A DNA stretch of 37,197 nt. Source: Sedimentimonas flavescens (GTDB lineage Bacteria; Pseudomonadota; Alphaproteobacteria; Rhodobacterales; Rhodobacteraceae). The stretch spans positions 1-37,197 of the forward strand of contig NZ_JAHVAI010000021.1 of NCBI RefSeq assembly GCF_019264375.1. Reading direction: 5' to 3'. The notes under the pieces were generated by a model. That model did not search any database, was not told the DNA's origin, and saw nothing but the letters and a program-made list of their open reading frames with translations. This document shows positions 20,608 to 37,197 of the stretch, one piece after another. How positions within the stretch are numbered: the stretch's first letter is position 1; the number at the start of each line of letters is the position of its first letter. A program made the translations under genes and the position numbers.

Positions 20608-21181
20608 TCTCATTCCTCTCGGCTAGGCCCGCCAGGGCAGAGCTGATCTCAAGGTCCAGCACGCTGCGCCGCGCACGCGACATCTCCTGGACCTGGTCGG
20701 CCAGATCGAAGACCAGACCCGCAAGGGCGCGGACGTCACGGTGACTTGAGGCCGGGTAGGACAGTCTCTCGCCCCGCACCTTGGCCTCGTTCAGACGTCG
20801 CGCGATCTGGTTCACGTTGTTGCCGACCCGGTTGAGCGCGGCGCCGAGGCTGCGCAACTCGTCACACATCTCGTCGTCGGGCAGGAAGACACCTTCGGCC
20901 GCCAGCATCAGGCGGCGCATGGCATCCGAGCGGTGCGCAATCCCGCGCCGCGACAGCGCCGCGTCGAACCGGCGCAGGTCGTCGTCCGAGACCCGGATCC
21001 CCACAACCCGCGATCGGCTGCCGTTCGCTGTCTGACGCTCACCCCAGTGGTTCACCACGTTGTAGATCGTCTTAAGGCTGACATCGTAGTGGGCTGCCAA
21101 CGACGCCGCGGAGACGCCGTTCCGGCGGTCCTGGGCGATGGTCGATCGCTCGATCTCTGACAGTCTGCGGCGGCGGGGCAT
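20594..21181 (-). CDS. MobC/VirD1-like relaxosome accessory protein with helix-turn-helix
   Basis: About 195 residues. The N-terminus has a resolvase-like helix-turn-helix (IAQDRRNGVSAASLAAHYDVSLKTIYNVV). This is followed by a ribbon-helix-helix-like strand (VVGIRVSDDDLRRFDAAL) and the MobC signature region (LRSLGAALNRVGNNVNQIARRLNEA). Such proteins bind the transfer origin, help the relaxase nick and often repress their own operon. I place the start at 21181 (MPRRRRLSE). An AGGAACG lies 14 bases upstream, a longer gap than usual. A start at 21256 is open but would run through the palindromic element at 21217-21267, so I prefer the shorter form. It is the first gene of the relaxase operon. 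Confidence 0.82.
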   Translation of the reverse strand: MPRRRRLSEIERSTIAQDRRNGVSAASLAAHYDVSLKTIYNVVNHWGERQTANGSRSRVVGIRVSDDDLRRFDAALSRRGIAHRSDAMRRLMLAAEGVFLPDDEMCDELRSLGAALNRVGNNVNQIARRLNEAKVRGERLSYPASSHRDVRALAGLVFDLADQVQEMSRARRSVLDLEISSALAGLAERNENGAE

Positions 21182-21216
21182 TTTGAAGTTAACGTTCCTA
21201 TTTCTTGCCAACTTCG

Positions 21217-21267
21217 TACAAGCCCGCCGACTCCCAACGCAAGTGGAGTCGGCCATAAGGGCTTGTA
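21217..21267. promoter_or_regulatory. Nested inverted repeat, candidate oriT or relaxosome binding site
   Basis: Outer arms TACAAGCCC (21217-21225) and GGGCTTGTA (21259-21267) enclose inner arms GCCGACTCC (21226-21234) and GGAGTCGGC (21245-21253). All four 9-bp arms pair perfectly, with a 10-base centre and a 5-base bulge. The element sits 36 bp before the MobC-like gene, between the relaxase operon and the divergent VirC1-like gene, which is where transfer origins of this class usually lie. It could also be the operator of the mobilization operon. Confidence 0.6.
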
Positions 21268-21278
21268 CTCAATGTAGA

Positions 21279-21301
21279 AAATCGCCCTGCAGGGGCGATT
21301 T
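21279..21301. repeat. Perfect 9-bp inverted repeat beside the candidate oriT
   Basis: AAATCGCCC-TGCAG-GGGCGATTT. It contains CCCTGC, weakly like the YATCCTGY nick consensus of VirD2/RP4-type origins. The resemblance is limited, so a nick site here is only a suggestion. Confidence 0.5.
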
Positions 21302-21733
21302 CCCGCCCTTTGTCAAATGGATCGCGCTTCGCGCTCATTGCACCACGCGATGCGGTCCCCGCCTCGCGCATCGCGTCTTTTGCACTCCGTCTCTTGCACC
21401 CCGCAAGACGGGCTTCGCTGCGTGCTGACCGTCTCGCGTCACCTGCAGAACGCCATACGCGAGGCTGCCTCCCGTCGTCTGGCGCACGCTATCCGTCACC
21501 TGGAGTCCGTCCGCAGCACATCGCCAAGCGCATCACGACATTTGGAGGGTGTGTGGTGCCCCGCGACGAATGCTGAAGGCGCCACGGCAGACGTCGCACG
21601 ATCATCGCACAACGCCACCCGCTGCATGCCAAACGCGGGTCGCATCCCGACTTCTGCTTGACCCCTCCGCCCCATGCGTTTAGCGACATTTTTGCATTAT
21701 CGTTTCGATTCACTATTTTTGCGGAGGATGAGA
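21302..21733. other. Gene-free, inverted-repeat-rich region upstream of virC1-like gene
   Basis: It carries a 9-bp perfect inverted repeat (CGCGATGCG 21346-21354 with CGCATCGCG 21367-21375). It also has a 6-bp pair AGACGG/CCGTCT around 21404-21432 and two copies of GTCACCTG(C/G)AG (21438 and 21495). Open frames on the plus strand here read as degenerate Arg/His/Ser-rich peptide without a ribosome binding site, so I call no gene. Together with 21217-21301 it makes a 300-bp block of secondary structure typical of a transfer origin and leading region. The promoter of the VirC1-like gene should lie near its right end, which is A+T-rich (21690-21722). Confidence 0.5.
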
Positions 21734-22453
21734 ATGCCGAACGAAAATCTTGTGGTGATCGCAGCGATGGCCCGGAAAGGGGGCAGTGGAAAAACGACGC
21801 TTTCGCGCGCCTTGATCAGTGCCGCGATCGCCGCCGGACGCAGGGTGATGTTGATCGACACGGACAGCACAAGAGTACTCGGGGCCTGGCATGCTCGGGC
21901 GCAAGCCGGTGGGCTGAGTTCGCCGCTTCTCTGCTCGGCCATCGTCGAAAGCGTGGCGGGTGTCGAGGATCAGATCGATCAGGTCTACATGGCAGGCACG
22001 GCAGACTTCATCTTCATCGATACCGCAGGGGTCGGTGCCGAATGGTCAGACGGCATCGCGGTGCTTGTGGACCACATTGTGACGCCCGTCATGCTGTCGA
22101 CGTCTGATTTCGATGTCGGAGCGCAGACTTCTGATTGGTTTGAGAAACTGAAATCCCGTGTTGACGACCCCTCCAGCCTTCCGCGCCACCACGTCGTCCT
22201 CAACATGGTCGACCCGAAAACGACCCGTGCTGACGCCGCCCTGATTGAAGAAGCGCTCACCCGTTTTCCGGTGATTGAGACCGTCATGATGCGACGAAAC
22301 ACTTACAAGGAGATGGATCAGAAGGGGCTTCTCCACGCCTTGGCGCTGGAAAAGCAATCTGATCCAAACCCTCTGATGCGTCCACATGTACGTCATGTCG
22401 TCGAGGCGCTCGAGGAGGCGACGGACATCCTCAACAATATTCTTGCTGCGTGA
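21734..22453 (+). CDS. VirC1-like ParA-family ATPase
   Basis: A 239-residue ATPase with a deviant Walker A (ARKGGSGKTTLS, near the N-terminus), ParA-type LIDTDSTRVLGAW, and the Walker B-like IFIDTAGVGAE. The C-terminus (YKEMDQKGLLHALAL, then HVRHVVEALEEATDILNNILAA) follows the pattern of the Agrobacterium VirC1 end, not that of partition ParAs. VirC1 gathers relaxosomes at the cell pole and stimulates nicking beside the T-DNA border. ATG at 21734 has GGAGG at good spacing; an in-frame ATG six bases earlier is too close to it. No parB or parS-like partner follows. It diverges from the relaxase operon and is followed ten bases later by a VirC2-like gene. Confidence 0.8.
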   Translation: MPNENLVVIAAMARKGGSGKTTLSRALISAAIAAGRRVMLIDTDSTRVLGAWHARAQAGGLSSPLLCSAIVESVAGVEDQIDQVYMAGTADFIFIDTAGVGAEWSDGIAVLVDHIVTPVMLSTSDFDVGAQTSDWFEKLKSRVDDPSSLPRHHVVLNMVDPKTTRADAALIEEALTRFPVIETVMMRRNTYKEMDQKGLLHALALEKQSDPNPLMRPHVRHVVEALEEATDILNNILAA

Positions 22454-23627: not shown

Positions 23628-24740
23628 ATGGCTTGGAACTGGACGCTGCCCGATTGGCCGGATTTCCGGTATGACGCCTCCGCTGTGGAGCCGTTTGAGC
23701 AGAGGTTCCTGCTGTCGTCCGGAGAAATCCTCGGCGCGGTCCATCATGTCAGCCAGCCGGAGCGCGAGCAACTCCGCATCGAACTGCTCAGCGAGGAAGC
23801 GATGCAGACGAGCGCCATCGAGGGTGAAATCCTCGATCGGCTCAGTGTCCAGTCTTCGCTGCGCCGCCATCTGGGCCTCGATCCGGACAGCTACCCTGCC
23901 AAACCGCGCGAACAGGGCGTCGCGGAAATGATGGTCGATGTCTATTCCAGTTTTGCAGAGCCGCTGACCCATGAGACACTGTACCGCTGGCATCGGATGC
24001 TACTGTCCCATGACCGTCGGTTGGAAACCATCGGGGCCTACCGACAACACGCCGAGGCGATGCAAATCGTTTCCGGCCGCCTTGACCGGCCCACGATCCA
24101 TTTCGAAGCGCCGCCCTCAGAGCGGGTCATGCCTGAGATGGAGCGATACGCGGATTGGTTCAACAAGACCGGGCCGGGGGGAGCAGAGCCGCTTCCAGCG
24201 CTGACGCGCGCAGGGCTAAGCCACCTCTATTTCGAGAGCATCCACCCATTCGAAGACGGCAACGGCCGCCTGGGTCGCGCCCTCGCTGAAAAGTCGCTGG
24301 CGCAGAACATCGGCCAGCCGACGCTCATCTCGCTCGCCTTCACCATCGAGAAGGAGCGCAAGGCATACTACGACCAGCTCGAGCAGCATCAAAAAACACT
24401 CGACGTGACCGATTGGCTCGTCTGGTTCGCGGAAGTTGTCTTGAAGGCCCAACAGGCAACACTCGACCGCGTCGGCTTCTTCATCAGCAAGGCACACTTC
24501 TACGATCGTCACAGAGACCAGTTGAACGAACGACAGGCCAAGGCCATCGCTCGAATGTTTCGGGAAGGCCCTGGCGGTTTCAAAGGCGGCCTCAGCGCCG
24601 ACAACTATCTCAAGATCACCGGAACTTCACGCGCAACCGCGACCCGCGATCTGCAGGATCTGGTCGAGCAAGGTGCGCTCAGCCGAACTGGCGAGCGCCG
24701 CCATACGAGGTACTGGCTGAACCTAGATGGGAGAGCGTGA
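23628..24740 (+). CDS. Fic-domain protein (AMP-transferase family) with C-terminal winged helix
   Basis: A 370-residue protein. The Fic active-site motif HPFEDGNGRLGR (about 206-217) is intact, with the catalytic His and the phosphate-binding GNGR, so transfer of AMP or another nucleotide onto a protein target is possible. Upstream of it, TSAIEGE (61-67) matches the inhibitory S/T-x-x-x-E-G/N helix of class II Fic proteins, so activity is self-inhibited and no separate antitoxin is needed. The C-terminal 70 residues (LSADNYLKITGTSRATATRDLQDLVEQGALSR) form a winged helix-turn-helix that could bind its own operator at 23601-23627. Roles of this class range from stress regulation to toxin or phage defense; the target is unknown. 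Confidence 0.9.
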   Translation: MAWNWTLPDWPDFRYDASAVEPFEQRFLLSSGEILGAVHHVSQPEREQLRIELLSEEAMQTSAIEGEILDRLSVQSSLRRHLGLDPDSYPAKPREQGVAEMMVDVYSSFAEPLTHETLYRWHRMLLSHDRRLETIGAYRQHAEAMQIVSGRLDRPTIHFEAPPSERVMPEMERYADWFNKTGPGGAEPLPALTRAGLSHLYFESIHPFEDGNGRLGRALAEKSLAQNIGQPTLISLAFTIEKERKAYYDQLEQHQKTLDVTDWLVWFAEVVLKAQQATLDRVGFFISKAHFYDRHRDQLNERQAKAIARMFREGPGGFKGGLSADNYLKITGTSRATATRDLQDLVEQGALSRTGERRHTRYWLNLDGRA

Positions 24741-24881
24741 ATGGTTGGTAGAAAGCCCGAGATCTTTACTATTGGCACATACGGCACGACGCGCAGTGCC
24801 CAGATTGGATGTTCCCTCTTTGTGCCAACCAGCGTAGAGTGGCCGTCAAAAAGGATTGAGCAGGATGGCACAGAAATCTGA
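24741..24881 (+). pseudogene. Probable DUF488 remnant, 46 codons
   Basis: ATG at 24741 follows the Fic stop directly. The reading opens MVGRKPEIFTIGTYG, like the first residues of DUF488 proteins (IFTIGTYGFT and similar, from memory). It then loses any likeness and ends at 24881, overlapping the start of the DUF5131 gene in another frame. This suggests the start of a DUF488 gene left after a deletion. It might instead be a short translated leader. Similarity rests on about ten residues. Confidence 0.35.
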
Positions 24882-25623
24882 AATCGAGTGGACAGACGCG
24901 ACGTGGAATCCCGTTACCGGCTGTACAAAAATCGGTCCGGGCTGCGACAACTGCTATGCGGAACGCTTTGCGGAGCGGTGGCGTGGTATAGAAGGGCATC
25001 CTTACGAACAAGGATTTGATCTGCGTCTCTGGCCGTCACGACTTGACCAACCGGCTCGTTGGAAGAAGCCGCGTATGATTTTTGTCAATTCAATGAGCGA
25101 TCTATTTCACAAGGATATTCCAATCAGTCACATCGACGCCGTTTTTGACGCGATGGAGAGGGCCAATTGGCATGTGTATCAGGTTCTTACCAAACGCTCT
25201 TCGCTGATGCGAAACTATGTGAAGAAGAGGTACTCTGGAGAAAAAGTCCCTTCGCACATTTGGCTCGGCGTGTCCGTCGAGGACAGCGCACACAAGAGCC
25301 GAATCGAACACCTGCGCCAAATCAACTCAGAAGCGCGATTTATTTCGTTTGAGCCATTGCTCGGCAGGATCGGGAACGTCGATCTGAGTGGCATAGCCTG
25401 GGCAATCGTCGGGGGAGAAAGTGGACCAAAGGCGAGGCCGATGGAACCGTCATGGGCAACAGAATTACGCCTGGCATGTGAAAAATACGACGTTGCATTC
25501 TTTTTCAAGCAGTGGGGGGGAGCCCGTCCAAAGTCTGGCGGACGGCTTCTCGAGGGGGCTGAGTGGAACGGCTTTCCATGGCAGATTGTTCCCAAAGAAA
25601 TAATGGCAGAGCTGACGAGTTAG
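24865..25623 (+). CDS. DUF5131 (Gp37/Gp68-like) three-Cys-motif protein
   Basis: A 252-residue protein with an N-terminal cysteine cluster C20-x6-C27-x2-C30 (TGCTKIGPGCDNCYAE), the mark of the phage Gp37/Gp68 family. The motif resembles the metal or Fe-S ligand sets of radical-SAM-like proteins, but no SAM chemistry has been shown to my knowledge. FVNSMSDLFH, YQVLTKRSSLM, IWLGVSVED and IVGGESGPKARP are conserved family segments, and FKQWGG sits near the end. I use ATG 24865 because AAGGA lies nine bases upstream; a TTG at 24856 overlaps that site. It ends seven bases before the tcmP-like gene, so the two form an operon. Confidence 0.87.
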   Translation: MAQKSEIEWTDATWNPVTGCTKIGPGCDNCYAERFAERWRGIEGHPYEQGFDLRLWPSRLDQPARWKKPRMIFVNSMSDLFHKDIPISHIDAVFDAMERANWHVYQVLTKRSSLMRNYVKKRYSGEKVPSHIWLGVSVEDSAHKSRIEHLRQINSEARFISFEPLLGRIGNVDLSGIAWAIVGGESGPKARPMEPSWATELRLACEKYDVAFFFKQWGGARPKSGGRLLEGAEWNGFPWQIVPKEIMAELTS

Positions 25624-25630
25624 GAACGCG

Positions 25631-26881
25631 ATGGCGACGAACTTCATCTGGGGACCTGATGGCAATCTCCCGCGAATTGAGGAACATACCAAGCGTAAGC
25701 TCGATGTCCTCAAGAACTATCTTGATGTCTATTTCGACACAGTGGTTCGCAACCCAGCACAAGATCGTTTGAATATTACTCTCGTGGATGGATTCAGTGG
25801 AGGCGGCGCATATTCCGATGGAAACGAGACACGAGCCGGGAGCCCGCTTGTTCTCCTCAATGCTGTTGAAGAGGCGACCGTAAGACTGAACGAAGGTCGC
25901 GCAAAGCCTCTGGAAATCAATGCACGCTTTATCTTTGTGGATGACGAACGCGAGCATGTGGCCGCCCTGAAGAGGGAGCTGCGCGGGAGAGGGTACAAAG
26001 AGAACGACCCGCAGATCTCTGTATTAGAAGGAAAGTTTGTAGAACACTTGCCGACAATCATGGCTGAGATCACGCAGACTCAGCGCAAAGGCCGATCCAT
26101 TTTCTTTTTGGATCAGTTTGGCTACTCCGACGTGCCAATGTCAGCGATACAGACGATCTTCACTGCCCTTGATAGAGCAGAGGTCGTGCTCAATTTCGCC
26201 ATCGATAGCCTCTTGAACTATCTCCAGGACGCCTCGGCAGAACTTCCTCTCTACCAACAGTTTGGTATCGACTCCCGCTTCATCGCTGATTGGAGACAGC
26301 GAAAAGATGAACATATGGGCCGCGCCCTGACGCAGCGCGCGCTCATGGCGCACATTCACGCAAAAAGTGGGGCCAAGTTTTTCACGCCATTCATGCTGTG
26401 GTCGCGCACGGATAACCGATGGATGATGCTTGCACACCTATCGCAACACCAAGCTGCCCGCGACAAGATGCTTAGCGTGCACTGGCAGGAACAGAACAGC
26501 TTCACCCACATTGGTTCTGGCAGCTTATTTTCTTTGGGGTATGACACGCGGTTGATCGAAAGTTGCGACTCGCTCTTCAACTTTTCAGAGATCGATCGAA
26601 CCAAATTGAGTACGGAGCTCGTGAACGCCCTGCCAGCCGAAGTCCACCAAATGATGGAAAATGGGCAGTTGGACGTCGCACGCCTGTTGGATGAGATTGG
26701 CAATCGAACAGCGGGCACCAACGACGACATTTTTCAGGTACTATCCGAATTGGCACAAGCGCGTGAATTAGAGGTTTTATCGGCCAACGGAACGCCGAAA
26801 AGGGCAGGAACGCGTATTTCTATCAAAGATCGACTTATCAGACCTAGCCAACCAACATTATTTTTTCCGTCGCGCTGGTAG
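25631..26881 (+). CDS. tcmP: Three-Cys-motif partner protein TcmP
   Basis: A 416-residue protein of the TcmP family, whose members are found next to three-Cys-motif proteins, as here. The N-terminal half looks like a Rossmann methyltransferase-like fold: LVDGFSGGGAYSDGN (about 51-65) in the place of motif I, FIFVDDEREHVAALK as the acidic strand-2 end, and FFLDQFGYSDVP (148-159) in the place of motif IV. The C-terminal half is helical. AGGA precedes the ATG and seven bases separate it from the DUF5131 gene. Base composition of this pair looks more A+T-rich by eye than the glucan gene, suggesting separate acquisition. The role is unproven; mobile context suggests defense or nucleic-acid modification. 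It converges with the GIY-YIG gene, whose stop is 21 bases away. Confidence 0.87.
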   Translation: MATNFIWGPDGNLPRIEEHTKRKLDVLKNYLDVYFDTVVRNPAQDRLNITLVDGFSGGGAYSDGNETRAGSPLVLLNAVEEATVRLNEGRAKPLEINARFIFVDDEREHVAALKRELRGRGYKENDPQISVLEGKFVEHLPTIMAEITQTQRKGRSIFFLDQFGYSDVPMSAIQTIFTALDRAEVVLNFAIDSLLNYLQDASAELPLYQQFGIDSRFIADWRQRKDEHMGRALTQRALMAHIHAKSGAKFFTPFMLWSRTDNRWMMLAHLSQHQAARDKMLSVHWQEQNSFTHIGSGSLFSLGYDTRLIESCDSLFNFSEIDRTKLSTELVNALPAEVHQMMENGQLDVARLLDEIGNRTAGTNDDIFQVLSELAQARELEVLSANGTPKRAGTRISIKDRLIRPSQPTLFFPSRW

Positions 26882-26901: not shown

Positions 26902-28110
26902 TCAAACCTTCGCAACGATTTCTTGGGATTGAACGTCGTACTCGAACAAATGAAGGCGCCCCTCTTCAATCAGTTTCGCCGCACGGCCGACATGGTCCGG
27001 CAAAACGTAAAACCATTCCTTTGGAAAGACCTTCTTCCCGAAGCGATCCGTCACAAAGAGCTCTGCCGGCCTGGCCGTCGCGAAAAAGCGGTGGAGAAGG
27101 TTCTCAACTTTGCGGCGGGACAGGTTTTGAAGCTCGTAGGTCGCGACGATGTCCACTGGTGCTAGCAAAAAAGTTGGATCGTTGCGAGCGTCTGCAACCC
27201 GGCGCGAAACATCCTGACTGGTGACACCGATCTTGTGCAGGATCATTCGCTGAGTTCTGATCGACGGATCATCCGAGCGCGACCGAGCGACGTAAATTGT
27301 CCCAGACAATTCGAGTTGATCAGATTCCCAGTCCGGATCGAGGGGACCAAGCCCGACCTTCTGAACCATTCTGGCCGTCTTATCGTCGTTGAGCGACTTG
27401 CGGAACGAAGACATAAGAGGATCACTCTCCATGCCGTTGGAAAAGATGACCCGAAGTCTGTGGTCACGAGAGCCCCCTCGCGCGGACATCTCGGATTTCT
27501 CAGCGATCATCGCGAGAAGGCCGTTGCGGATGAAGAAGTCGCCTTCTATGGGCTCAATCACGGACCATTTCTTTACGGGCAGTGCTTGGCGGTCGCCCGC
27601 TTCCAAAGCCTGCTGCACCGCTTCAAAACGCTCTGCGAACTGGTCGAAATCGCGACAGGGAACAAATTCCGCCCGATGATCGGGCAAGTGTCGCTCTGCG
27701 GCAGGCGTCGTATGTTTCAAATCGATCAGAGACGCATCGACGGAAAGCTCTTCATCGTCGAAAATATCATCTAGGCTGTCAGGCACGTCAGAAACTAGCG
27801 GCTCATCTCGCCATGATTTCAATGCCTGCGCTGTCTCGTCGTCCAAGAGTCCAAACCGGTCCTCCAGCCGCATCTGGTCTGTCGGCGCAGACTTGATCGA
27901 TGCCCAGATCGAACCGAGCCGCATCTCGTCATGGTCCACCGCATCAGGATCGGGAACGCGCCCGTGTTTCTCAAAGAACGCTGAGACTTCTCTCAGCGCG
28001 CCAGCCCCTTGGTCGGAAACTACAGTGGCGCGGCTGCCGCGCAGCCTAACGTCCAACAGGCCGAATTCATCGTCTTCCGCAAATATGTCATCCAAGCTCG
28101 GCCGCGTCAT
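26902..28110 (-). CDS. GIY-YIG nuclease family protein (T5orf172-like)
   Basis: A 402-residue protein, last gene of the five-gene defense operon. The C-terminal domain has the GIY-YIG pattern: GTIYVARS (270-277) for the first tripeptide region, LHKIGVTS (291-298) for the second, VSRRVADARNDP with the catalytic-type Arg, KVENLLHRFF (334-343) with a candidate catalytic Glu, and FPKEWFYV at the end. The first 250 residues are acidic and repeat a short motif: SLDDIFAEDDE near residue 5 and SLDDIFDDEE near 112. The protein may be recruited to a partner through these. Its start overlaps the helicase stop by four bases. It is the likely cleavage subunit of the system; this is inference from domain and position. 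Confidence 0.82.
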   Translation of the reverse strand: MTRPSLDDIFAEDDEFGLLDVRLRGSRATVVSDQGAGALREVSAFFEKHGRVPDPDAVDHDEMRLGSIWASIKSAPTDQMRLEDRFGLLDDETAQALKSWRDEPLVSDVPDSLDDIFDDEELSVDASLIDLKHTTPAAERHLPDHRAEFVPCRDFDQFAERFEAVQQALEAGDRQALPVKKWSVIEPIEGDFFIRNGLLAMIAEKSEMSARGGSRDHRLRVIFSNGMESDPLMSSFRKSLNDDKTARMVQKVGLGPLDPDWESDQLELSGTIYVARSRSDDPSIRTQRMILHKIGVTSQDVSRRVADARNDPTFLLAPVDIVATYELQNLSRRKVENLLHRFFATARPAELFVTDRFGKKVFPKEWFYVLPDHVGRAAKLIEEGRLHLFEYDVQSQEIVAKV

Positions 28111-30191
28111 TGCATCGCGCCCTCGCGCAGCCGCTTCGCCTTCTCAGCTTTCAGCCAGGCCAGTGCCTCTGCCATCCGCTTCTCCAGGGGATCGGCAGAA
28201 TGAACGTTCGGCTCACGTCCTTCACTGGCCCGGAACGCCTTGATCCTCGGCCAAAGTGTTCGAGCCTCGTCGCCGGTCATATTGACCCGCAATGCAACCA
28301 TCGCCGATTGGACATGTGCCAAGAGCTCCGAGTTCAAAGACTTCGATGCGACCTCGAACCGTTCACGAAACGTGTTCACGCTATCGATGAGCTCAACATC
28401 GATGTCGCGGACGTTGATGAATTTCTTGACCATCTGCAGCAGCGTATTGGGGGCGCTGTCTCCGGCTTCATCCCCATCGTCGTCAGAAGCGTCCGCCTTG
28501 CCGGGGCTGCCGGTCAAAGGTGACTGCCCTTCAGCGAAGCCACGCTCAGCTTCTCGCCGCGCCAAAGTTAGCACGTTCATATGCGCCGCAAGGTGTTGCC
28601 GAACAGACTCGGCCTCTTCTGAATCCAGAGTTTCGTATCTGCGCTCGATGATGTCCGTCAGAACCATTTGCGTGGCAACCTCAGGCGCCGTGTCGGGAGA
28701 AAGGACCCGTCTATCCATTTCCTGGTAGGCGGTAGCCATCAAGTCGTGCATGTCCTTCTCGCAGATTTCCCGAGCTCGATCAGTGGGTGGCTCAATCAGT
28801 CCCTTGATACCGATTGTAACGTTGCCTTCGGCGTCAGTCCCGACCGGGGCACGCACGTCGCCATCCTCGCGCCGATAGAATTTGAAGTTGGGTGCCAACA
28901 CCTGCTCCATAAGCAGAGAACCAGAAATGGCCTTCAGCATGTCGTTGACCGCGTCCGTCACAACGCCGGTTTCCACACCCGGCTCGGCAACCAGGTTGGT
29001 GAAGAGCGCACGCGGCTTACCCGGCGCATCGCGAGTGGCTCTCCCGATAATCTGCACGATTTCTGTAAGCGATGACCGGTAGCCGATCGTCAGGGCATGT
29101 TCACACCAGACCCAGTCGAACCCTTCTTTCGCCATACCAAGCGCAATTATGATGTCGACCTTCTCGCGGTCCGACGTATCGTCTCGACGACCATCAGTGC
29201 CTTTGATCTCTCGCGAAAGCGCAGATTTAACGATGTCCCGGCCTGGTCCGTCATCAACCAGATCGGCGATTTTCAGAATCTGCCCATCTGGCCTGCGGAC
29301 CAGATCAAATCCGGTCTCAGGATCGCGACCTTCATGGACACCCAAGAGGTCGAGAATCTTTCCGACTTCGTTGTATTTGTCGTCGAATGCCTCGGACGAC
29401 CCCCGATGAGGAATGTGGATGATCGTCTTTTGGTCAGGGTTCAGCACCCCTGGCAATCCGTTGACGTAATTGCCCTTGTAGAATTCGTAGTTGATCCCGA
29501 GTGCCTTGAGAAATTCGTAGCCTTCCAGCTGCTCGTAGTAGCTGTAGGTGATCTTGGTAAACCGATCCTCATCCTCTGGCCGCAACACTGGATCCGCATC
29601 CCCGCGGAAATAGCTGCCGGTCATTGCCATCACATGACATTCCGCTCGGGAAATCAGACTGCGCAGGATCACGCCCAGCCGGTTGTTGTCGGAGGCAGAG
29701 ACATGGTGGAATTCGTCAATGGCGATGAAGCAATTGTCAAAAGCCTCGATACCCGCAGTTCTTGCCACCTCATCGAAACCAAAGCGGAATGTGGCATGGG
29801 TGCACACCAGCACCTTGGCATCGCTTTCCAGGAACGCCTGAAACGCCTTGACCTTTTGCTTGTCTGCGTCCTCGCCGGTCAAACAGAGGTTCCAGCGATC
29901 ATCGACGTCCCAGTCCGCCTCAAACCCATAGCGGGTCAGATCCGTTGAGCGGAATGATCCGCCAATCGATGTCTCGGGCACGCAAACAATCGTCTTTTCC
30001 AGCCCCTGATGAAGCATCTTGTCGAGAGCGACGAACATGAGCGCGCGGCTCTTGCCAGCTGCGGGGGGCGCTTTGAGCAAAAGGAACTGCGCCGCTCGTG
30101 CGGCATAGGCGCGGGCCTGCATCGGGCGTTGGCCCAACTTGTTGGTTGTCGAATTGGAGCGCCCATAGGTCACGTTCACCATTTCAACCAT
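28107..30191 (-). CDS. SF2 DEAD/DEAH-type helicase or translocase
   Basis: A 694-residue ATPase. Walker A is APPAAGKS (41-48), motif II is DEFH (159-162), motif III is the MTGS stretch near 190, and motif VI is QIIGRATRD (380-388), so both RecA lobes are present. About 280 residues follow, with an acidic linker (DASDDDGDEAGDSAP) and helical ends, which may contact partners. GGGAG lies six bases before the ATG. It starts one base after the Abi-like stop and overlaps the nuclease gene by four bases. It could translocate on DNA as HsdR or Res subunits do, but has no nuclease motif of its own; the neighbouring GIY-YIG protein may supply that. The C-terminal part is not one I recognise. Confidence 0.87.
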   Translation of the reverse strand: MVEMVNVTYGRSNSTTNKLGQRPMQARAYAARAAQFLLLKAPPAAGKSRALMFVALDKMLHQGLEKTIVCVPETSIGGSFRSTDLTRYGFEADWDVDDRWNLCLTGEDADKQKVKAFQAFLESDAKVLVCTHATFRFGFDEVARTAGIEAFDNCFIAIDEFHHVSASDNNRLGVILRSLISRAECHVMAMTGSYFRGDADPVLRPEDEDRFTKITYSYYEQLEGYEFLKALGINYEFYKGNYVNGLPGVLNPDQKTIIHIPHRGSSEAFDDKYNEVGKILDLLGVHEGRDPETGFDLVRRPDGQILKIADLVDDGPGRDIVKSALSREIKGTDGRRDDTSDREKVDIIIALGMAKEGFDWVWCEHALTIGYRSSLTEIVQIIGRATRDAPGKPRALFTNLVAEPGVETGVVTDAVNDMLKAISGSLLMEQVLAPNFKFYRREDGDVRAPVGTDAEGNVTIGIKGLIEPPTDRAREICEKDMHDLMATAYQEMDRRVLSPDTAPEVATQMVLTDIIERRYETLDSEEAESVRQHLAAHMNVLTLARREAERGFAEGQSPLTGSPGKADASDDDGDEAGDSAPNTLLQMVKKFINVRDIDVELIDSVNTFRERFEVASKSLNSELLAHVQSAMVALRVNMTGDEARTLWPRIKAFRASEGREPNVHSADPLEKRMAEALAWLKAEKAKRLREGAMQ

Positions 30192-30192
30192 G

Positions 30193-31017
30193 TCATTCTC
30201 CCTTCGGGCGCGCGTTGATAATCTGGTTCACACGGCATCGGGTTGCTACCCATGCCTCCAGGTCCGGAGAGGACCACGCGATCAGCTTTAACGCGTCTTG
30301 GTACTTCGAAGATGGGCCTTTGTCGAAGATCGCATTGTGGTGCGCGATGCGGTTACGCCAGCGGCGAACGCTTTCGATCAAGTCGTGCAAGTCTTCCAGC
30401 TTGGCATCCCATGGAGCGTGCTTGAACACCCGCTGAAACCCTTTCGGGAACAGATAACGCTGGAACCGCTTGGTCGTCAGGTGCTCCCAAAACCCGAAAG
30501 ACAAAGCCGAAACCATGTGGTGGGCGTCCATAACGTCACCGTGTTGATCGGTCTCATCAGCGATTGCGTTGTCGATATCCTTCCTGCGAACAGGGTCCAG
30601 GATTTTCAGGAAAGTTGCGTTTTCAAACCATCGCGGGTCACGGAACGTCAGGGCGTTGTGTATGCTGTTCCGGCAGGTCACCTCGGCCATATGCAATGCA
30701 AAGTGAAAGGCCTCGGACAGGTCGCAGTTCCAGAGGTAGATGTCCTCGCGCGCCACCCCGGCATCACCCGCCGCAGGGGCGTATCGCTGCAGTCTTCGGT
30801 CGCTCAGGCAGTCGGTTAACAGCTTCTGAACCCTAAGATCGGTCAGAGTTTGAACTTGATCCGTGGCCACATCAGCGCTATCTATTGCTTCGTGAGACGC
30901 GGTGAGGTTGCCTTTAGGTGCTTCGGCAGGCTTCTGGCCCCTCCCGTGGACAAGATCATGAGGCGGGCCTTCGGGCGCCGCCTCGCTTGTTTTTGGGGGC
31001 GCGTTCTTATCGGTCAT
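30193..31017 (-). CDS. Abi_2/AbiD-like HEPN protein (putative RNase toxin)
   Basis: A 274-residue protein. The first 60 residues are low-complexity and polar, the rest is the Abi_2-like domain. Signs are RLQRYAPAAGD, the LHMAEVTCRNSIHNAL helix, VSALSFGFWEHL, and the HEPN ribonuclease motif RNRIAHH (R221-x4-H226). Proteins of this family stop phage growth by killing or arresting the infected cell, and HEPN domains usually cleave RNA. Its ATG overlaps the previous gene's stop (ATGA). Being in the middle of a methyltransferase-helicase-nuclease operon, it may be a last-resort effector or be controlled by the other subunits. No separate antitoxin is obvious unless the preceding unknown gene serves as one. 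Confidence 0.82.
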   Translation of the reverse strand: MTDKNAPPKTSEAAPEGPPHDLVHGRGQKPAEAPKGNLTASHEAIDSADVATDQVQTLTDLRVQKLLTDCLSDRRLQRYAPAAGDAGVAREDIYLWNCDLSEAFHFALHMAEVTCRNSIHNALTFRDPRWFENATFLKILDPVRRKDIDNAIADETDQHGDVMDAHHMVSALSFGFWEHLTTKRFQRYLFPKGFQRVFKHAPWDAKLEDLHDLIESVRRWRNRIAHHNAIFDKGPSSKYQDALKLIAWSSPDLEAWVATRCRVNQIINARPKGE

Positions 31018-31805
31018 TTCGCACCCGCCTTCTGATCACGATCCTTCAGTATCGCCTTCTCGAACCACGCGGGAACACTGGTAACGTCAGCCTTAGAGAT
31101 GTTCTCGGGCACGTCCTTCCAGAAAGACACGATGGCATCAGCGAACGCCTGCAATTGTACATCGCTGACCTTGAGGTGTGTATGATCACGCCACTCAATA
31201 CCCAAGTCGTTGTAGAATTTAACGCCATTTTCGTCCGTAAAAGGATCGACCACGTACTCGGGAAACTCCCTCTTCAAATTTTCAAATGCCGTGCCCTCTC
31301 CATGCTTGTAGACATTCACTACAAGTCGGCACGCATCCAGCAGCTTGAAATACCCAGTACTGCGGATCTTCCACCCGAAGCCTTCGAGCAGGTCAGCGAG
31401 GTCTGAAAAGTTCGCCTTCCAGATTTTTTCGGCGGCCAGATCCCCCCGGTGCCAATGTCCAATCTCACGCACCAGCCAATCGCGAAGCTGCTTGTCCCAT
31501 TCATGGAACATGCCCGCGACCACACTCAGCTGGGTCTGATCACGCATATCGGAGAGCAGGCGATAGAACTCGATGCCGGCCTCTCCGGCCGCCTCATAGA
31601 AGCTCCCCGGATCGTCTCGGTCGGGATCGAAACGGTGGCTGTTGTTCTCGAGCCAGTCTTCCGAGGCCTTGTCTGCCTCAGCTTCTATGTTCTCAAACTG
31701 CGTGAGAAGCCGCTTGCGTGCCTGTTCGACATAGAACAAGTGCCCGTCGATCAGCGACTGGCGAAATGGTCCCCACATCTGGAACAATACATAGGCCCCC
31801 GTCAT
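31014..31805 (-). CDS. Unknown helical protein of the defense operon
   Basis: A 263-residue soluble, helix-rich protein with no domain I can name. The stretch FKLLDACRLVVNVYKHGEGTAFENL resembles the Asn-x-x-KHG motif in families of uncharacterised proteins with HEPN-like helices, but the Arg-to-His spacing (seven residues) does not fit the usual Rx4-6H. I therefore do not call it HEPN. WLVREIGHWHRGDLAAEKIW is another distinctive segment. It overlaps the methyltransferase stop by four bases (ATGA) and the Abi-like start by four, so it is surely expressed with them. It could be an antitoxin for the Abi-like protein, a specificity partner, or a sensor; nothing in the sequence decides. Confidence 0.75.
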   Translation of the reverse strand: MTGAYVLFQMWGPFRQSLIDGHLFYVEQARKRLLTQFENIEAEADKASEDWLENNSHRFDPDRDDPGSFYEAAGEAGIEFYRLLSDMRDQTQLSVVAGMFHEWDKQLRDWLVREIGHWHRGDLAAEKIWKANFSDLADLLEGFGWKIRSTGYFKLLDACRLVVNVYKHGEGTAFENLKREFPEYVVDPFTDENGVKFYNDLGIEWRDHTHLKVSDVQLQAFADAIVSFWKDVPENISKADVTSVPAWFEKAILKDRDQKAGAK

Positions 31806-34492
31806 GCGCGCGCGCCCTTCTTGTCCTGCGATTTCACCTTGGCGGCATAGAGCTTGAAGAGCTTCTCTAGCCGTTCGGTGTCATTGCGGAAGGGGCGGCC
31901 GATATACATTGTTTCCAAGAGGTCATCGTTCTCCCGATGCACCGCGCGCAGGTCGTCGGGCATTTTGTCGGGGTCGTAGAGCTCGGCGATGGTCTTGGGG
32001 AAATGCGAGTAGCGGCACTTGAGGATGCGCCGCGCCGAGGCGGATAGCTCTGCCAGCTGATCCTCACTGAACTTCGGCACCGGGAAGGTGTTCCAACCGA
32101 GGGTGTTGGAGTAGCGAAAGCGCGTCTCAAGTTTTCCGCACACGTTGGCAACCCAAATGAGATGCAGGCGTGACGCGATCAGGGCGATGCACCATTCAGG
32201 GGCGTCATAGAGCACTTGGTTGAGGTTCGACGCGATAACATCTGCACCAACACGCTCGACAGGAAGGTATGGCCTGCGTTCGGAAGTGACGCTCGGCACC
32301 AGAATAGAATGGTTTTCGGCGGTGAAGACTTGCTTAAAACGATACGACAGAGGAAGCAGCTTTTCCCGCACATATGCGTCAGTGCTTTTCGCACGAAATG
32401 CTTTCACCTCTCGGATGCGTTCCGCTATTGCCGGAATGGCCTCTGCTTCGGCGACAGTCTCAGGGGTGATCCACAGACAGTAACGGCGGTAACCATTAAC
32501 GACCTCGTCGGCGCCCATGAACGGTCGGACAAATGCTGATGCACGCGGCTCACGCTCAACTAACGCCTCTTTTTCATCCTGAGTTAAGATGAGGTGACCA
32601 CCCTCAACTGGCTTGTTGCCATAGTCCATGGAGGCGAGGCCGAACAATCCGGTGCGCGTTCCTTCCACAGCGACGGATGGGGCATTGACCAAGTATCCGT
32701 TGATGTTGTCTGCCGCGCTCTCGATGCCATCCGCAAACAACCGCTTCGATTCTCTGCACTGGTTACGGATGCCGATTACCGAACACATGACCGTTGCATT
32801 GGAAGAAGCATTGTTCTGCCATTTGAAATCCTTATGCGCGAATCCGATTTCCAGATCATCTTCCAGCACATGCGGCCACAACGCGGCGACAGAATAGCCC
32901 TGACAAATCGAGTTAGTGGACACCAAGGCCGCCCGAGCGGTTCGTCCACGGATGTAGCGGGAAGCCTTGAAGAACCATGCCGCCACGAAGTCGAAAGCGG
33001 CAAAGCTCTTTACATGCCCGGAGAAGACATGCGCAAGGTCGGCCTTCTGTTCTTTGCTCTGATACGTTGACCCAAGGAACGGCGGGTTGCCCGCGATGAA
33101 CACCTCCTCGCCCTCACCGGGAGGCGGGCAGACTTCTTCCCAGTCAATACGCAGAGAGTTCCCGGTGCGAATATGCGCCGCATCTTTTAGAGGCAGCGCA
33201 GCGGGACGGCGACCAAAAACCTCGGCAAAGCTGGCATTGGCCTGATACTCGGCAATGAACAGCGCGAGCTTGGCAGTCTCTGCCGCAAAGTCCGCGATCT
33301 CGATTCCATAGAAATTGCTGATCGGGATGGCCGAAAACATCTGCATCGAGCCGGGGCCGGTGAGTTCCTCCAACCGCTGCAGGATGCGCGTCTCGCGCGC
33401 TCTGAGTTCGCGGTAGGACACGACCAGAAAGTTGCCCGAGCCACAGGCAGGATCAAAGACGCGAATACGCGACATGCGGTCCAACACCTGCTGCAAAGCT
33501 TTCGCGCGATCCCAGGCCTTGTGGATCTCGGCATCCAGATCATCGAGGAACAGCGGCCCGATCACCTTCATGATGTTCGGCACCGAGGTGTAGTGCATCC
33601 CCAGTTCCGAGCGCTGCTTGGGATCAGCCACCGACTGGATCATCGAACCGAAGATGTCAGGGTTGATTTCGCGCCAATCAAGATCGCTGGCATCGCGCAG
33701 GTAGCGGAAGGCGATTGTGTCAAACCGCGGCGCGTCGATGGTGCCCGCGAACAGCCCGCCGTTGACGTATTCTAACTCTGCCGTCCATGCTGGCAGGGCG
33801 CCGCGCTTGTCCTTGGGCAAGTTCATGGCGTTGAAGGCGGCGATGATGGTTTCACGCGCCTCTTCGCCCTTGTCGCCCGCATGGGTGAACAAAAGGCGCG
33901 AGAACTGGTTGTCCGGGAAGATGCCCACGTCCTCGGCGAACATGCAGAAGATGAGCCGCATCATCAGCTGGTTCATCTCGTGCCGCCGATCGTCGCTACC
34001 CCAATCGGGATTGGCCTTGGTCAGCGCATCATAGAGACGCGCGAGCTTGCCGGTCGCTTTGACGTCGACAGGGTTCTCTTCGACCGCGCGGTAGCGTTCC
34101 TTGCCCGCGGCGGGCAGGAAGAAGCCGAAATGATCACCTAACTCGCTGAAGGTGCAATGCAGTGTATCGCCTGAAGCTGGATGTTCAGCCGCAATGGTTT
34201 CGCCATCGGTCGCGATCAGGATCGCGGGCTTGGACGCCTTGGTTTTCTTAGAGGCGCGCAGCTGATCGAGCGTGACATCGGTCAGACCCTTTAGTGCAGG
34301 CGCGTAGTGGAATTTCTTGTTGAACAGAACGCCGCCAGAAAGATCCGACTTGTTGGTCGAGCCATTGCGCAGTTTCGAAATCGCAGCCTTGGCCGCGTCC
34401 GTCGCCTCAGCAAATGCAAAGGGGAATTCATTCGGATCAAATGGCTTGGCCGCAATCTCGGCAAGGGCATCGTAAATTTCAGTCGGGTTCAT
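31802..34492 (-). CDS. MmeI-like N6-adenine DNA methyltransferase
   Basis: A 896-residue class I methyltransferase, first gene of the operon. Motif I is FDPACGSGNFL (346-356) and motif IV is NPPF (469-472), which marks an amino-methyltransferase, probably adenine N6. An N-terminal helical spacer (HEMNQLMMRLIFCMFAEDVGIFP) precedes them. The C-terminal half (FVRPFMGADEVVNG, YRRYCLWI, LETRFRYSNTLGWNTFPVP) matches the target-recognition and C-terminal parts of MmeI/YeeA-type enzymes. I see no PD-ExK nuclease domain at the N-terminus as in true type IIL enzymes, so cutting would need another protein. The upstream TTG is ignored: ATG 34492 has GAGG at good spacing. It gives the host mark; the helicase and GIY-YIG genes downstream are candidates for restriction. 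Confidence 0.87.
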   Translation of the reverse strand: MNPTEIYDALAEIAAKPFDPNEFPFAFAEATDAAKAAISKLRNGSTNKSDLSGGVLFNKKFHYAPALKGLTDVTLDQLRASKKTKASKPAILIATDGETIAAEHPASGDTLHCTFSELGDHFGFFLPAAGKERYRAVEENPVDVKATGKLARLYDALTKANPDWGSDDRRHEMNQLMMRLIFCMFAEDVGIFPDNQFSRLLFTHAGDKGEEARETIIAAFNAMNLPKDKRGALPAWTAELEYVNGGLFAGTIDAPRFDTIAFRYLRDASDLDWREINPDIFGSMIQSVADPKQRSELGMHYTSVPNIMKVIGPLFLDDLDAEIHKAWDRAKALQQVLDRMSRIRVFDPACGSGNFLVVSYRELRARETRILQRLEELTGPGSMQMFSAIPISNFYGIEIADFAAETAKLALFIAEYQANASFAEVFGRRPAALPLKDAAHIRTGNSLRIDWEEVCPPPGEGEEVFIAGNPPFLGSTYQSKEQKADLAHVFSGHVKSFAAFDFVAAWFFKASRYIRGRTARAALVSTNSICQGYSVAALWPHVLEDDLEIGFAHKDFKWQNNASSNATVMCSVIGIRNQCRESKRLFADGIESAADNINGYLVNAPSVAVEGTRTGLFGLASMDYGNKPVEGGHLILTQDEKEALVEREPRASAFVRPFMGADEVVNGYRRYCLWITPETVAEAEAIPAIAERIREVKAFRAKSTDAYVREKLLPLSYRFKQVFTAENHSILVPSVTSERRPYLPVERVGADVIASNLNQVLYDAPEWCIALIASRLHLIWVANVCGKLETRFRYSNTLGWNTFPVPKFSEDQLAELSASARRILKCRYSHFPKTIAELYDPDKMPDDLRAVHRENDDLLETMYIGRPFRNDTERLEKLFKLYAAKVKSQDKKGARA

Positions 34493-34506
34493 CAACAGGC
34501 CTCGGA

Positions 34507-34964: not shown

Positions 34965-35897
34965 TCACGCCCCCTTCTCGAACTTCATGACCGGGATGCC
35001 GAGCTTCTTGGCCTTGTCGGCGAGGTTTTCCTGGATACCGGTTCCGGGGAAGACAAGGACCCCGACCGGGAGCACATCCAGCATCGCGTCATTGCGCTTG
35101 AAGGGCGCGGCCTTGGCGTGCTTGGTCCAGTCGGGCTTGAAGGCCACCTGCGTCACGCCGCGAGCCTCGGCCCATTTGGCGGCGATGAGCTCTGCGCCCT
35201 TCGGGCTGCCACCGTGCAGGAGGACCATGTCGGGATACTTGGTCCGGACCTGGTCGAGCTTGCCCCAGATCAGGCGGTGATCGTTGAAATCGGTCCCGCC
35301 GGTGAGGGCGACCTTGGGGCCTGCGGGAAGCATTACCTCGGTCTCGGCGCGGCGCTTGGCGGCCAGGAAGTCGCGGCTGTCGATCAGGGCGGCGGTCATG
35401 TGCTGGCGATTCACCATCGAGCCGGTGCGGGGTCGCCAGGTCGATCCCGTGTGATGGACGAACTCGGTGGCGGCGTGATCGCGCATCATGTCCATGCAGT
35501 TGCGCCGTTCGATCAGCGTCAGGCCTTCGGCCGTCAGGCGCTCGAGTTCGACGGACTTCACCTCGGAGCCATCCTGCTCGCGCTGGAGGCGGCGCTGCGC
35601 CTGTTCGTTCTCATCGAGCGACCGCTCGATCCGGGCCGTGGCGCGGTGGAAGAGGTTGACCTGGCCCCAGAGCACTTCTTCGAGGTCGGGTTCCATGCGG
35701 GTGTCTTCGAGGGTCCCGACGAGGGCGTCGAAGATGTCGGCGACGGCGACGGCGAGGCGCTGCCCATCGGGCATCGGGCGCGGATCGGGCTCGTCAAAGG
35801 GGCGATAGCCGTAGAGCTGGAGTTCGTCGAGCGCATGGGCGGTCTGGGATGTGCTATGGGCGGGTTCATACGCGTCGTCGTGGGTATGGATCGTCAT
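34965..35897 (-). CDS. DUF2493-domain (SLOG-like) plasmid protein
   Basis: A 310-residue protein. The first 190 residues are helical and charged (QAQRRLQREQDGSEVKSVELERL). The last 115 are the DUF2493 domain, a Rossmann-like fold related to the nucleotide-binding SLOG group: KVALTGGTDFNDHRLIWGKL, MVLLHGGSPKGAELIAAKWA and VLVFPGTGIQENLADKAK. The start at 35897 (MTIHTHDD) has GGAGG 10 bases upstream; a start 39 bases earlier lacks one. Genes like this are a steady part of alphaproteobacterial plasmid backbones, next to WGR and Toprim genes as here. The biochemical role is unknown. Its leader contains a very large inverted repeat (35937-36150) that may control it. Confidence 0.85.
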   Translation of the reverse strand: MTIHTHDDAYEPAHSTSQTAHALDELQLYGYRPFDEPDPRPMPDGQRLAVAVADIFDALVGTLEDTRMEPDLEEVLWGQVNLFHRATARIERSLDENEQAQRRLQREQDGSEVKSVELERLTAEGLTLIERRNCMDMMRDHAATEFVHHTGSTWRPRTGSMVNRQHMTAALIDSRDFLAAKRRAETEVMLPAGPKVALTGGTDFNDHRLIWGKLDQVRTKYPDMVLLHGGSPKGAELIAAKWAEARGVTQVAFKPDWTKHAKAAPFKRNDAMLDVLPVGVLVFPGTGIQENLADKAKKLGIPVMKFEKGA

Positions 35898-35936
35898 CGG
35901 TTTCTTGCCTCCGGGCCTGTCTCGTCCGCGCGTCAT

Positions 35937-36259: not shown

Positions 36260-37197
36260 TCAGCTGGGCAGGCGATGCCGATCCTCTGGCCCGATCTGAC
36301 CTGCCAGATGCTGGCGCAGTGCGTCCTTGCCGTTCGCCCGAAGATCATCGTTGAAATCCCCGAGCCGCGGTTCCAGCACATGGCAACCGATCCCGACCTC
36401 GGAGGCTCTGGCGCTCAACTTCTCTGCCGCGCGCTGCCCGGCCGGATCGCGATCGATCGCGATGTAGAGGCGCTTCAGCCCATCTGGCAGCAGGACCGCC
36501 CCGAGGTGACCCGAAGAGAGCGCCGCCCAGACGGGCAGACCTGGGATTGCCTCGGACAGGGACAGCATGGTCTCGATGCCTTCGCCGATGACGAGGATGT
36601 CATCCTGCGGGGTCAGCCTGACAGCATTGCCGAGGAGGTGACCCATAGCCCGACGCTCTGGATTCACTGCCGCCTTCCCCTGCCCGTCAGCTGCCAACCA
36701 GGTGCGATGCACGCCCTGCACGGCCCCTGCCCCATCGGTAACCGCCGCGATCATCGCCGGTCTGGGGATGCTCCGGGTCTGCCCCTCTTCCCGATGCCAG
36801 CACTTCGGGTGGAAGCGTAAGGCGCCGTTCGCCCCGAATTGGGTGATGCCTCGGGAACGGAGGTAGGTCTCCGCAAGCGTGCCTGTGATCGGGTTCGAGG
36901 CAGCAAACAAGCGCGCCGCCGCCGCAGGAGTGCCACCGGGCGCCTTGGCCTTCCTAGGCTCTTGCCTATCAGGGACGACCGGCTGCGGACGGCCAAGATG
37001 CGCTCGGGCCTCGGCGAGAAGGTCGGGGAAGCGCGTGATCCCCGTCCGGGAGCGGATGATGTCCAGGAGATCGCCATGCTCGCCTGTGGCCCCATCCGTA
37101 TTATGTGGAATTCCACATAATACGGAACATGTTGCGGTGCGGATTATGTTGCGGTTGCGGTTCTGGTCCCTGTTTTGCTGTGGATTTCGCGGGGCTG
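36260..37197 (-). CDS. Toprim-domain plasmid primase-like protein, 5' end missing or disrupted
   Basis: The frame is open from the stop at 36260 to the window edge. From about 37098 on it reads TDGATGEHGDLLDIIRSRTG, then LFAASNPITGTLAETYLRSRGI, a metal-binding Toprim core with VIGEGIETMLSL (the Glu) and LYIAIDRDPAGQ (the D-x-D), and RLGDFNDDL. This matches the C-terminal two thirds of DUF7146/Toprim plasmid proteins (about 300-350 residues). In relatives known to me, TDAATGEHGD is preceded by a Gly-Lys-Trp segment and about 80 conserved residues. Here the frame continues through a 30-bp palindrome into Asn/Arg-rich sequence with no likeness. A TTG at 36910 is not the true start, since homology extends beyond it. 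Either the gene is interrupted at the palindrome or its 5' part is rearranged. Confidence 0.8.
   Translation of the reverse strand, partial: APRNPQQNRDQNRNRNIIRTATCSVLCGIPHNTDGATGEHGDLLDIIRSRTGITRFPDLLAEARAHLGRPQPVVPDRQEPRKAKAPGGTPAAAARLFAASNPITGTLAETYLRSRGITQFGANGALRFHPKCWHREEGQTRSIPRPAMIAAVTDGAGAVQGVHRTWLAADGQGKAAVNPERRAMGHLLGNAVRLTPQDDILVIGEGIETMLSLSEAIPGLPVWAALSSGHLGAVLLPDGLKRLYIAIDRDPAGQRAAEKLSARASEVGIGCHVLEPRLGDFNDDLRANGKDALRQHLAGQIGPEDRHRLPS
37096..37125. repeat. Perfect 30-bp palindrome centred on an EcoRI site
   Basis: Half-site CCGTATTATGTGGAA followed by its exact reverse complement, with GAATTC at the centre. Just to the right, 37125-37162 has related pieces: a CGGAACATGTTGCGG block, a CGGATTATGTTGCGG block, then another TTGCGG. 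Homology of the Toprim gene ends at the palindrome, so it may be the tip of an inserted element. Confidence 0.75.

Follow-up and report, generated by a model that had tools for sequence, protein, structure and literature searches.

A probable DnmA-YeeB-YeeC-type restriction-modification operon of Sedimentimonas flavescens with two genes embedded between methyltransferase and helicase

The subject of this report is a stretch of 37,197 nucleotides of Sedimentimonas flavescens DNA (contig NZ_JAHVAI010000021.1, positions 1 to 37,197; the window in what follows), which carries five uninterrupted open reading frames (ORFs), all on the minus strand, spanning positions 26902-34495. We argue that these five genes probably constitute a restriction-modification (RM) operon of the DnmA-YeeB-YeeC type, situated beside mobilisation genes, in which two additional genes are embedded between the methyltransferase and the helicase. 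This would be a known, little-tested restriction-type operon in what looks like a new five-gene form, the apparently new elements being a slot for cargo genes, the family of one of the two embedded genes and a natural exchange of specificity. The genes are designated MTA (methyltransferase), UNK (called unknown), ABI (Abi_2 gene), HEL (helicase) and GIY (GIY-YIG gene):

31802..34492, minus strand: MTA, an MmeI-like adenine methyltransferase with a target recognition domain, DnmA/YeeA type (Pfam, PADLOC, phmmer)
31014..31805, minus strand: UNK, 263 residues, of a family without a Pfam model (phrog_19541), with a conserved NVYKHGxG motif
30193..31017, minus strand: ABI, an Abi_2 (AbiD/AbiF-type HEPN) protein, embedded cargo (PF07751; PADLOC PD-T4-5)
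28107..30191, minus strand: HEL, an SF2 helicase/translocase, YeeB type (DEAD; DEFH and GRATR; plasmid homologue annotated YeeB)
26902..28110, minus strand: GIY, a GIY-YIG/T5orf172 nuclease, YeeC type (PF13455 and PF10544 above cut-off)

Neighbouring genes overlap by four bases at 31802-31805 (MTA/UNK), 31014-31017 (UNK/ABI) and 28107-28110 (HEL/GIY), and a 1-bp gap at 30192 separates ABI from HEL. A first-pass annotation made from the letters alone had described these five genes and junctions, and the ORF coordinates bear it out except for a single codon at the start of MTA, where a TTG at 34495 is also possible (31802-34495), the ATG at 34492 being the next codon. The identical five-gene order recurs in six other genomes (loci L020-L024 and L053), against which the ratio of non-synonymous to synonymous substitution rates (dN/dS) is 0.03-0.22 wherever computable for all five genes, and 0.03-0.07 for HEL, indicating purifying selection. 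Given an order repeated in six genomes and such low dN/dS values, the arrangement is not a product of chance.

The methyltransferase-helicase-nuclease core

By its sequence, the MTA-HEL-GIY core is the dnmA(yeeA)-yeeB-yeeC cluster known from Bacillus subtilis, an assignment resting on domains, gene order and the YeeB annotation of a plasmid homologue, the B. subtilis proteins themselves not having been aligned. A tblastn search with HEL matched 263 plasmid records, at least one of which, among the 40 listed, is annotated 'restriction/modification system component YeeB'. It was this annotation that led to the two articles on the cluster (PMC7261158, PMC9973331), and the earlier view that the gene set belonged to no recognised named system had to be dropped for the core, the match covering three of the five genes. 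In five plasmid loci that were opened (L003-L006 and L008), methyltransferase, helicase and GIY-YIG nuclease follow one another in that order, with UNK after the methyltransferase in L008.

How constant the core is can be judged from 36 HEL loci outside the window genome, obtained from two genome draws. The class draw gave matches in 18 of 385 genomes, and after exclusion of the window genome and of G186 (86 residues, E 9.9e-4) the remaining 16 genomes provided 17 loci, two of them in G281; the phylum draw gave matches in 24 of 398 genomes and, with the window's own genome, three already counted and G553 (106 residues, at a contig end) set aside, a further 19 loci. MTA lies upstream of HEL in 33 of the 36 loci and GIY downstream in 35, so that the frequent occurrence of helicase and nuclease without the methyltransferase, which the first-pass annotation had considered as a possibility speaking against it, is not what is seen. 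The three loci counted as lacking MTA are L129 (none in about 6 kb), L133 (a short remnant) and L147 (which starts at a contig end). Conservation of gene order thus holds for the core and not for all five families as had been envisaged: UNK and ABI are optional, and the slot between MTA and HEL contains UNK in 0/36 and ABI in 0/36 of these loci. HEL was absent from all 40 other genomes of the relatives draw, and in the phage collection tblastn found it only as fragments in two records. A second, diverged MTA-HEL-GIY copy is present in the same genome on contig C27 (L019, 8260 bases), its HEL being 51% identical and its slot holding a PDDEXK_4 nuclease gene (PADLOC PDC-S26).

The domain composition agrees with this assignment. 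MTA matches five MmeI Pfam domains and the PADLOC type IIG model (895 bits) and contains the motif NPP[FYW]; phmmer aligns it to MmeI (5hr4) from residue 129 onward, leaving the N-terminal part unaligned even though Pfam MmeI_N covers residues 2-160. A loose nuclease pattern, D-x7-13-(D/E)xK, does not occur in the window's MTA and is seen in 8 of the 67 homologues, where it may be coincidental. HEL is barely above the cut-off for Pfam DEAD (26.4 bits vs 26) and carries DEFH and GRATR as well as, reading by eye, a Walker A stretch APPAAGKS at residues 41-48. GIY scores 34.2 bits for T5orf172 (cut-off 20) and 44.8 for MUG113 (cut-off 22.3), and contains the stretches IYVA, KIG, RRV and VENL, which we take to be motif stretches of the GIY-YIG family. 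Other classes fit poorly. The PADLOC Type I methyltransferase model reaches only 16.6 bits on MTA, and no HsdS or HsdR is found among the PADLOC matches listed for the ten scanned proteins (25 of 29 matches in the case of MTA); PglX models of BREX stay at or below 24.3 bits against cut-offs of 400-900, MAD2 of MADS reaches 16 bits against 720, and DrmMI of DISARM gives a partial 117 bits, no DISARM partner being present among the ten scanned proteins.

Compared with the Type IIL enzyme MmeI, MTA has the same methyltransferase, spacer and recognition domains, and an E/R or K/D pair at the equivalent place; MmeI, however, combines nuclease and methyltransferase in one chain, whereas MTA has no alignable N-terminal nuclease and a motor and a nuclease are here provided by separate chains. 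The earlier proposal of an MmeI-type enzyme split in this operon is borne out: MTA holds the parts for modification and recognition, HEL is of motor type and GIY of nuclease type, and a HEPN-type protein, ABI, is added.

As far as the accessible text of the two articles goes, DnmA of B. subtilis is a proven N6-methyladenine (m6A) methyltransferase at GACGAG (PMC7261158) and an MmeI relative devoid of a nuclease motif (PMC7261158, PMC9973331). Morgan et al. 2009 are credited with having noted the cluster and suggested a Type I-like RM system (as told in PMC7261158). The synteny of dnmA with helicase and T5orf172 genes is described as conserved, an uncharacterised family near dnmA is mentioned as a possible further member in some bacteria, and deletion of the dnmA or yeeB homologue in Vibrio crassostreae is reported to increase sensitivity to some phages (PMC9973331). 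The window's operon shares with this cluster an MmeI-like methyltransferase without nuclease, followed by an SF2 helicase and then by a T5orf172/GIY-YIG gene; it differs in having UNK and ABI between methyltransferase and helicase, and the published B. subtilis tests, in their accessible portions, showed neither restriction nor phage protection.

Exchange of the recognition part of MTA

Two of the five-gene loci, L020 (Pseudooceanicola antarcticus) and L021 (Actibacterium ureilyticum), are mosaics with respect to the window. Their HEL and GIY are 97.6-98.6% identical to those of the window at the nucleotide level, while the recognition part of MTA is only 73% (L020) and 64% (L021) identical. 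Two features of MTA are concerned:

32150..33200, minus strand: block of about 1 kb replaced between the window and L020/L021 (located in 150-bp windows; edges good to about 150 bp)
32120..32128, minus strand: MTA residues E790 and R792 (numbered from the TTG), aligned with MmeI E806/R808, at the downstream edge of the replaced block

Identity in the 150-bp windows falls to 65-81% (L020) and 51-80% (L021) inside the block, against 87-97% in the flanking ones, giving the block sharp edges. At 790/792 the window has E,R, whereas L020 and L021 both have K,D. In MmeI, at the corresponding positions 806/808, the pair E,R makes the last recognised base a C and the pair K,D makes it a G (accessible part of PMC4081073); if this code carries over, the last base would be C for the window and G for L020 and L021. 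Among 67 MTA proteins, namely that of the window and those of 66 of the 79 loci matching MTA (fragments of up to 700 residues were dropped), the pair is ER in 25, KD in 23, RD in 15, GG in 3 and RG in 1, so that this place switches among a few pairs across the family.

Specificity therefore seems, on sequence grounds, to lie in MTA alone, as one would predict for a split restriction system resembling Type ISP; this is in keeping with the earlier idea that target recognition is held by MTA. The constancy of HEL and GIY alongside an exchanged recognition part suggests that the two act on whatever site MTA reads, which is not proof of restriction. In L021, a second mosaic block falls in UNK (window 31400-31101), where two 150-bp windows are 79% and 65% identical, compared with 98-100% before and 94-100% after them; L020 has none. 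That UNK travels with the recognition swap was consequently rejected as a rule, L021 being changed in both genes and L020 in MTA only. What has been published on dnmA-yeeB-yeeC concerns mainly B. subtilis, in which the cluster resembles a relic; the natural swap points to a functioning system elsewhere, and three operons differing mainly in the recognition part allow a direct test.

The junction between MTA and HEL and its cargo

Among the drawn loci, MTA and HEL are more than 300 bp apart in 11 of 33, HEL and GIY in 0 of 35. From these gene layouts the MTA-HEL junction emerges as a cargo slot, which appears to be new. Taking the loci found with UNK together with the drawn loci, its cargo families include RhuM, YhcG, PDDEXK_4, Fic, zeta-like, Schlafen-like and, in the window, Abi_2. 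The inserts of the 11 drawn loci were read as follows:

L125, L132: RhuM (label via cluster with typed L048)
L124: YhcG/DUF1016
L116, L136: PDDEXK_4 nuclease (label via cluster with typed L019, the window genome's second copy)
L131: PDC-S67 family protein
L119: YafQ-type toxin and an unknown (327 residues)
L123: pentapeptide repeats and unknowns
L122, L126, L145: without assignment

The MTA frame is split in L123 and L124, whose printed MTA-HEL gaps are too large, albeit above 300 bp either way. There was no Pfam match for the cargo of L075, L082, L122, L126 and L145, for the 327-residue protein of L119, for one ORF of L131 or for two of L123. The RhuM label was likewise given by cluster with L048 to L045, L050, L052 and L054, and the Fic label to L071 by cluster with L070 and to L069 by its ORF and tblastn.

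Accessory defence genes inside restriction operons have precedents: HEPN, Fic and RhuM genes are embedded in RM operons (PMC3710099), and TgvAB is embedded in the Type I RM operon of Vibrio cholerae VPI-2, where earlier work by Payne and colleagues is cited (PMC11411939). As far as the accessible portions of these sources tell, the principle is the same, whereas host system, slot and cargo are all different. The published open literature yielded no description of a defined cargo slot for the dnmA family (most subscription journals and all preprints lay outside the search). Searches for uncharacterised defence genes could start from this slot.

UNK itself strongly matches phrog_19541, a family of unknown function; searches against Pfam, PADLOC and NCBIfam gave no match for it at the thresholds applied. 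It carries one conserved motif:

31293..31316, minus strand: UNK motif NVYKHGEG, residues 164-171, conserved in alignment A2

Alignment A2, which together with a quick tree covers 56 UNK proteins (the window and 55 of the 72 genome loci described below), shows N164, V165, K167, H168, G169 and G171 to be invariant. The motif resembles HEPN motifs by eye only, and the idea that UNK is a HEPN protein found no support: against HEPN Pfam models a weak E of 0.13 was obtained in 1 of 56 members, the PDB profile search gave a best E of 0.27 to unrelated proteins, and a profile comparison of UNK with ABI returned a probability of 0.4%.

With an alignment of plasmid UNK relatives (A1) as query, 73 genome loci were recovered, of which 72 were retained after exclusion of L092 (24 residues matched). 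UNK has MTA before and HEL after it on the same strand in 39 of the 72; in L074 MTA precedes it and the contig then ends; and in 32 it stands apart from both genes within the fetched DNA, L061, L078 and L081 being counted here in spite of a nearby contig end that leaves one side unseen. Within the slot UNK is alone in 19 of the 39 loci, is preceded by a PDC-S11 gene in L057, and is separated from HEL by an extra gene in the other 19 (Abi_2 in 6, RhuM in 5 with one truncated, Fic in 3, YhcG, zeta-like and Schlafen/AlbA-like in 1 each, unknown in 2). On the quick tree, the label 'in slot' requires 7 changes, at least 3 of them forced by well-supported branches, and it is clustered (0 of 500 shuffles were as low); the changes imply that UNK entered or left the slot repeatedly. 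Its history is also separate in other respects, since identity in L053 is 57% for UNK but 85-86% for ABI and HEL, and Pseudomonas aeruginosa PA7 (L025) has a UNK that is 70% and a HEL that is 53% identical. By these sequence comparisons UNK is an independently mobile gene, whose family is found in the slot as well as on its own, in plasmids and viral contigs. Neither MTA nor HEL was found in any of 35 UNK loci of viral contigs, a tblastn search of the phage collection gave no record with UNK, and UNK is present in 5 of the 398 phylum-draw genomes at E 1e-10, the window's own included. That UNK is always with the core was hence rejected, as was a constant partner for solo UNK: apart from UNK itself, no neighbour cluster there comprises more than five loci, mostly close relatives.

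ABI scores 29.2 bits for Pfam Abi_2 (PF07751; cut-off 25.6) and 51.9 bits for PADLOC PD-T4-5, and carries the following motif, taken from a pattern search:

30340..30357, minus strand: ABI HEPN-type motif RNRIAH (RNxxxH), residues 221-226

R221, N222, R223 and H226 are invariant in the 8 sequences of ABI alignment A3. ABI is thus like AbiD/AbiF (Abi_2) proteins and PD-T4-5 in matching both models, and unlike them in being embedded in a restriction operon and in that the Abi_2 match (residues 92-232) leaves its first approximately 90 residues uncovered. A three-gene relative on a Kozakia plasmid, with a HEL 85% identical at the amino acid level and MTA and HEL 3 bp apart, has neither UNK nor ABI; for this lineage the two are therefore an optional pair, with gain indistinguishable from loss. 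Outside the operon, 11 viral contigs (L168-L172, L174-L177, L179 and L181) carry UNK followed by an Abi_2 gene some 90 bp on, with a weaker match further downstream in L173; the viral Abi_2 gene was typed by Pfam in L172 only, where its upstream neighbourhood has a gene for a phage tail lysozyme and its downstream neighbourhood one for a PBECR1-type nuclease. Sharing one ABI score, these 11 contigs are probably a single prophage lineage and count as a single independent case.

How UNK and ABI relate to the core can be envisaged in more than one way. It is a serious possibility, although we would not back it over its negation, that they form a two-gene abortive-infection module of their own, for which the slot is a place to land and which would function independently of the core. 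The 32 of 72 genome loci with UNK apart from MTA and HEL and the 0 of 35 viral-contig loci with either gene would be explained in this way, as would the UNK-Abi_2 order of the 11 viral contigs and the presence of RhuM and YhcG cargo in the slot both with and without UNK. Against such a module, the prophage copies probably amount to the one case just described, solo UNK keeps no lasting company other than itself, and no UNK lies within 7 kb of ABI's nearest plasmid relative, which is in Methylorubrum extorquens AM1.

Rather doubtful, by comparison, is the notion that the restriction complex keeps ABI inactive, and that ABI is freed when a phage inhibitor disables that complex, as PrrC is by its Type I partner (PMC3710099, accessible part), with UNK as tether or antitoxin. 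ABI is placed between methyltransferase and motor, four-base overlaps would couple translation, and ABI occurs in the slot exclusively together with UNK, in 7 of 7 cases (the window and six loci). All seven nevertheless belong to one lineage, six were found by searching for UNK, and UNK is also found beside quite different cargo and alone, the interaction itself being putative.

Proposed mechanism, points against it and the neighbourhood

Returning to the DnmA-YeeB-YeeC-type restriction operon that we favour, we infer the following sequence of events. MTA would bind a short asymmetric site through its recognition domain and methylate one adenine, thereby marking self. At unmethylated sites, the complex of MTA with DNA would recruit HEL, which would translocate on DNA with ATP, and converging motors would then bring in GIY, which would cut; anti-phage action is likewise proposed. 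ABI would most likely cleave RNA and stop growth when DNA restriction fails or is inhibited, a plausible second line by analogy with PrrC and one instance of what the slot may hold. The proposed logic (an asymmetric site, a gamma-class methyltransferase with recognition domain, a translocase and cleavage away from the site) is that of the Type ISP enzymes LlaGI and LlaBIII; these, however, are single polypeptides with an Mrr-like nuclease (accessible part of PMC3874165), whereas here three separate chains are encoded and a GIY-YIG nuclease would replace the Mrr nuclease. Any coupling of ABI and UNK to the core is suggested by their position, the gene overlaps and the PrrC precedent.

Going further, one may speculate that the DnmA-YeeB-YeeC family works as a split restriction system of Type ISP-like design, that its MTA-HEL junction is dedicated to the docking of second-line toxins which can be exchanged, and that UNK is an undescribed adaptor or sensor loading some of these toxins, here a HEPN RNase, onto the complex, so that restriction-disabling phages would trigger growth arrest. 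We regard this elaborate version as a long shot.

Several observations weigh against the favoured interpretation. According to the accessible portions of the B. subtilis studies, deletion of dnmA left plasmid uptake unchanged (PMC7261158), and deletions in the cluster left sensitivity to three phages unchanged, its authors calling the locus a nonfunctional relic (PMC9973331). A swap in MTA next to constant HEL and GIY could also occur if HEL and GIY did nothing, although the selection acting on them argues otherwise. The R,D pair of 15 of the 67 homologues corresponds to no base assignment we have seen, and the UNK block of L021, not shared by L020, means that changes in UNK do not track the recognition swap. 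Moreover, ABI in the slot is seen in one lineage only (the window and six loci, and 0 of 36 drawn loci), and its pairing with UNK is partly selected, the six other ABI operons having been found via the UNK search. That the operon is altogether a relic which no longer restricts, with MTA retained as an orphan that methylates DNA or regulates genes while the remaining genes hitch along, is nonetheless improbable, for although B. subtilis shows no restriction, no phage effect and altered expression (PMC9973331, PMC7261158, accessible portions), five intact frames are here under purifying selection against L020-L024 and L053 (HEL at 0.03-0.07), the motifs are intact and GIY stands beside HEL in 35 of 36 loci.

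As to the surroundings, relaxase, MobC-like, conjugative coupling protein and VirC1/ParA-like genes lie at window 16290-22453, and from their proximity the operon probably sits on a mobilisable element. Adjoining the operon and convergent with it are genes for Fic, DUF5131 and three-Cys-motif partner TcmP proteins (PADLOC candidates PDC-M30/M41) at window 23628-26881 on the plus strand; beyond the operon, L021 shares the TcmP, DUF5131 and Fic genes with the window and L020 only Fic, and DUF5131 or TcmP genes past GIY also occur in L004, L021 and L050, and by a short match in L115. Upstream of the operon are a YspA/SLOG-family protein (34965-35936, minus strand) and a Toprim/DUF7146 protein (36260-37195, minus strand). 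Farther away, at window 6935-15613 on the minus strand, a protein of 2892 residues with glycosyl hydrolase 94 and glucoamylase-like domains is encoded, presumably of the cyclic glucan synthase type.

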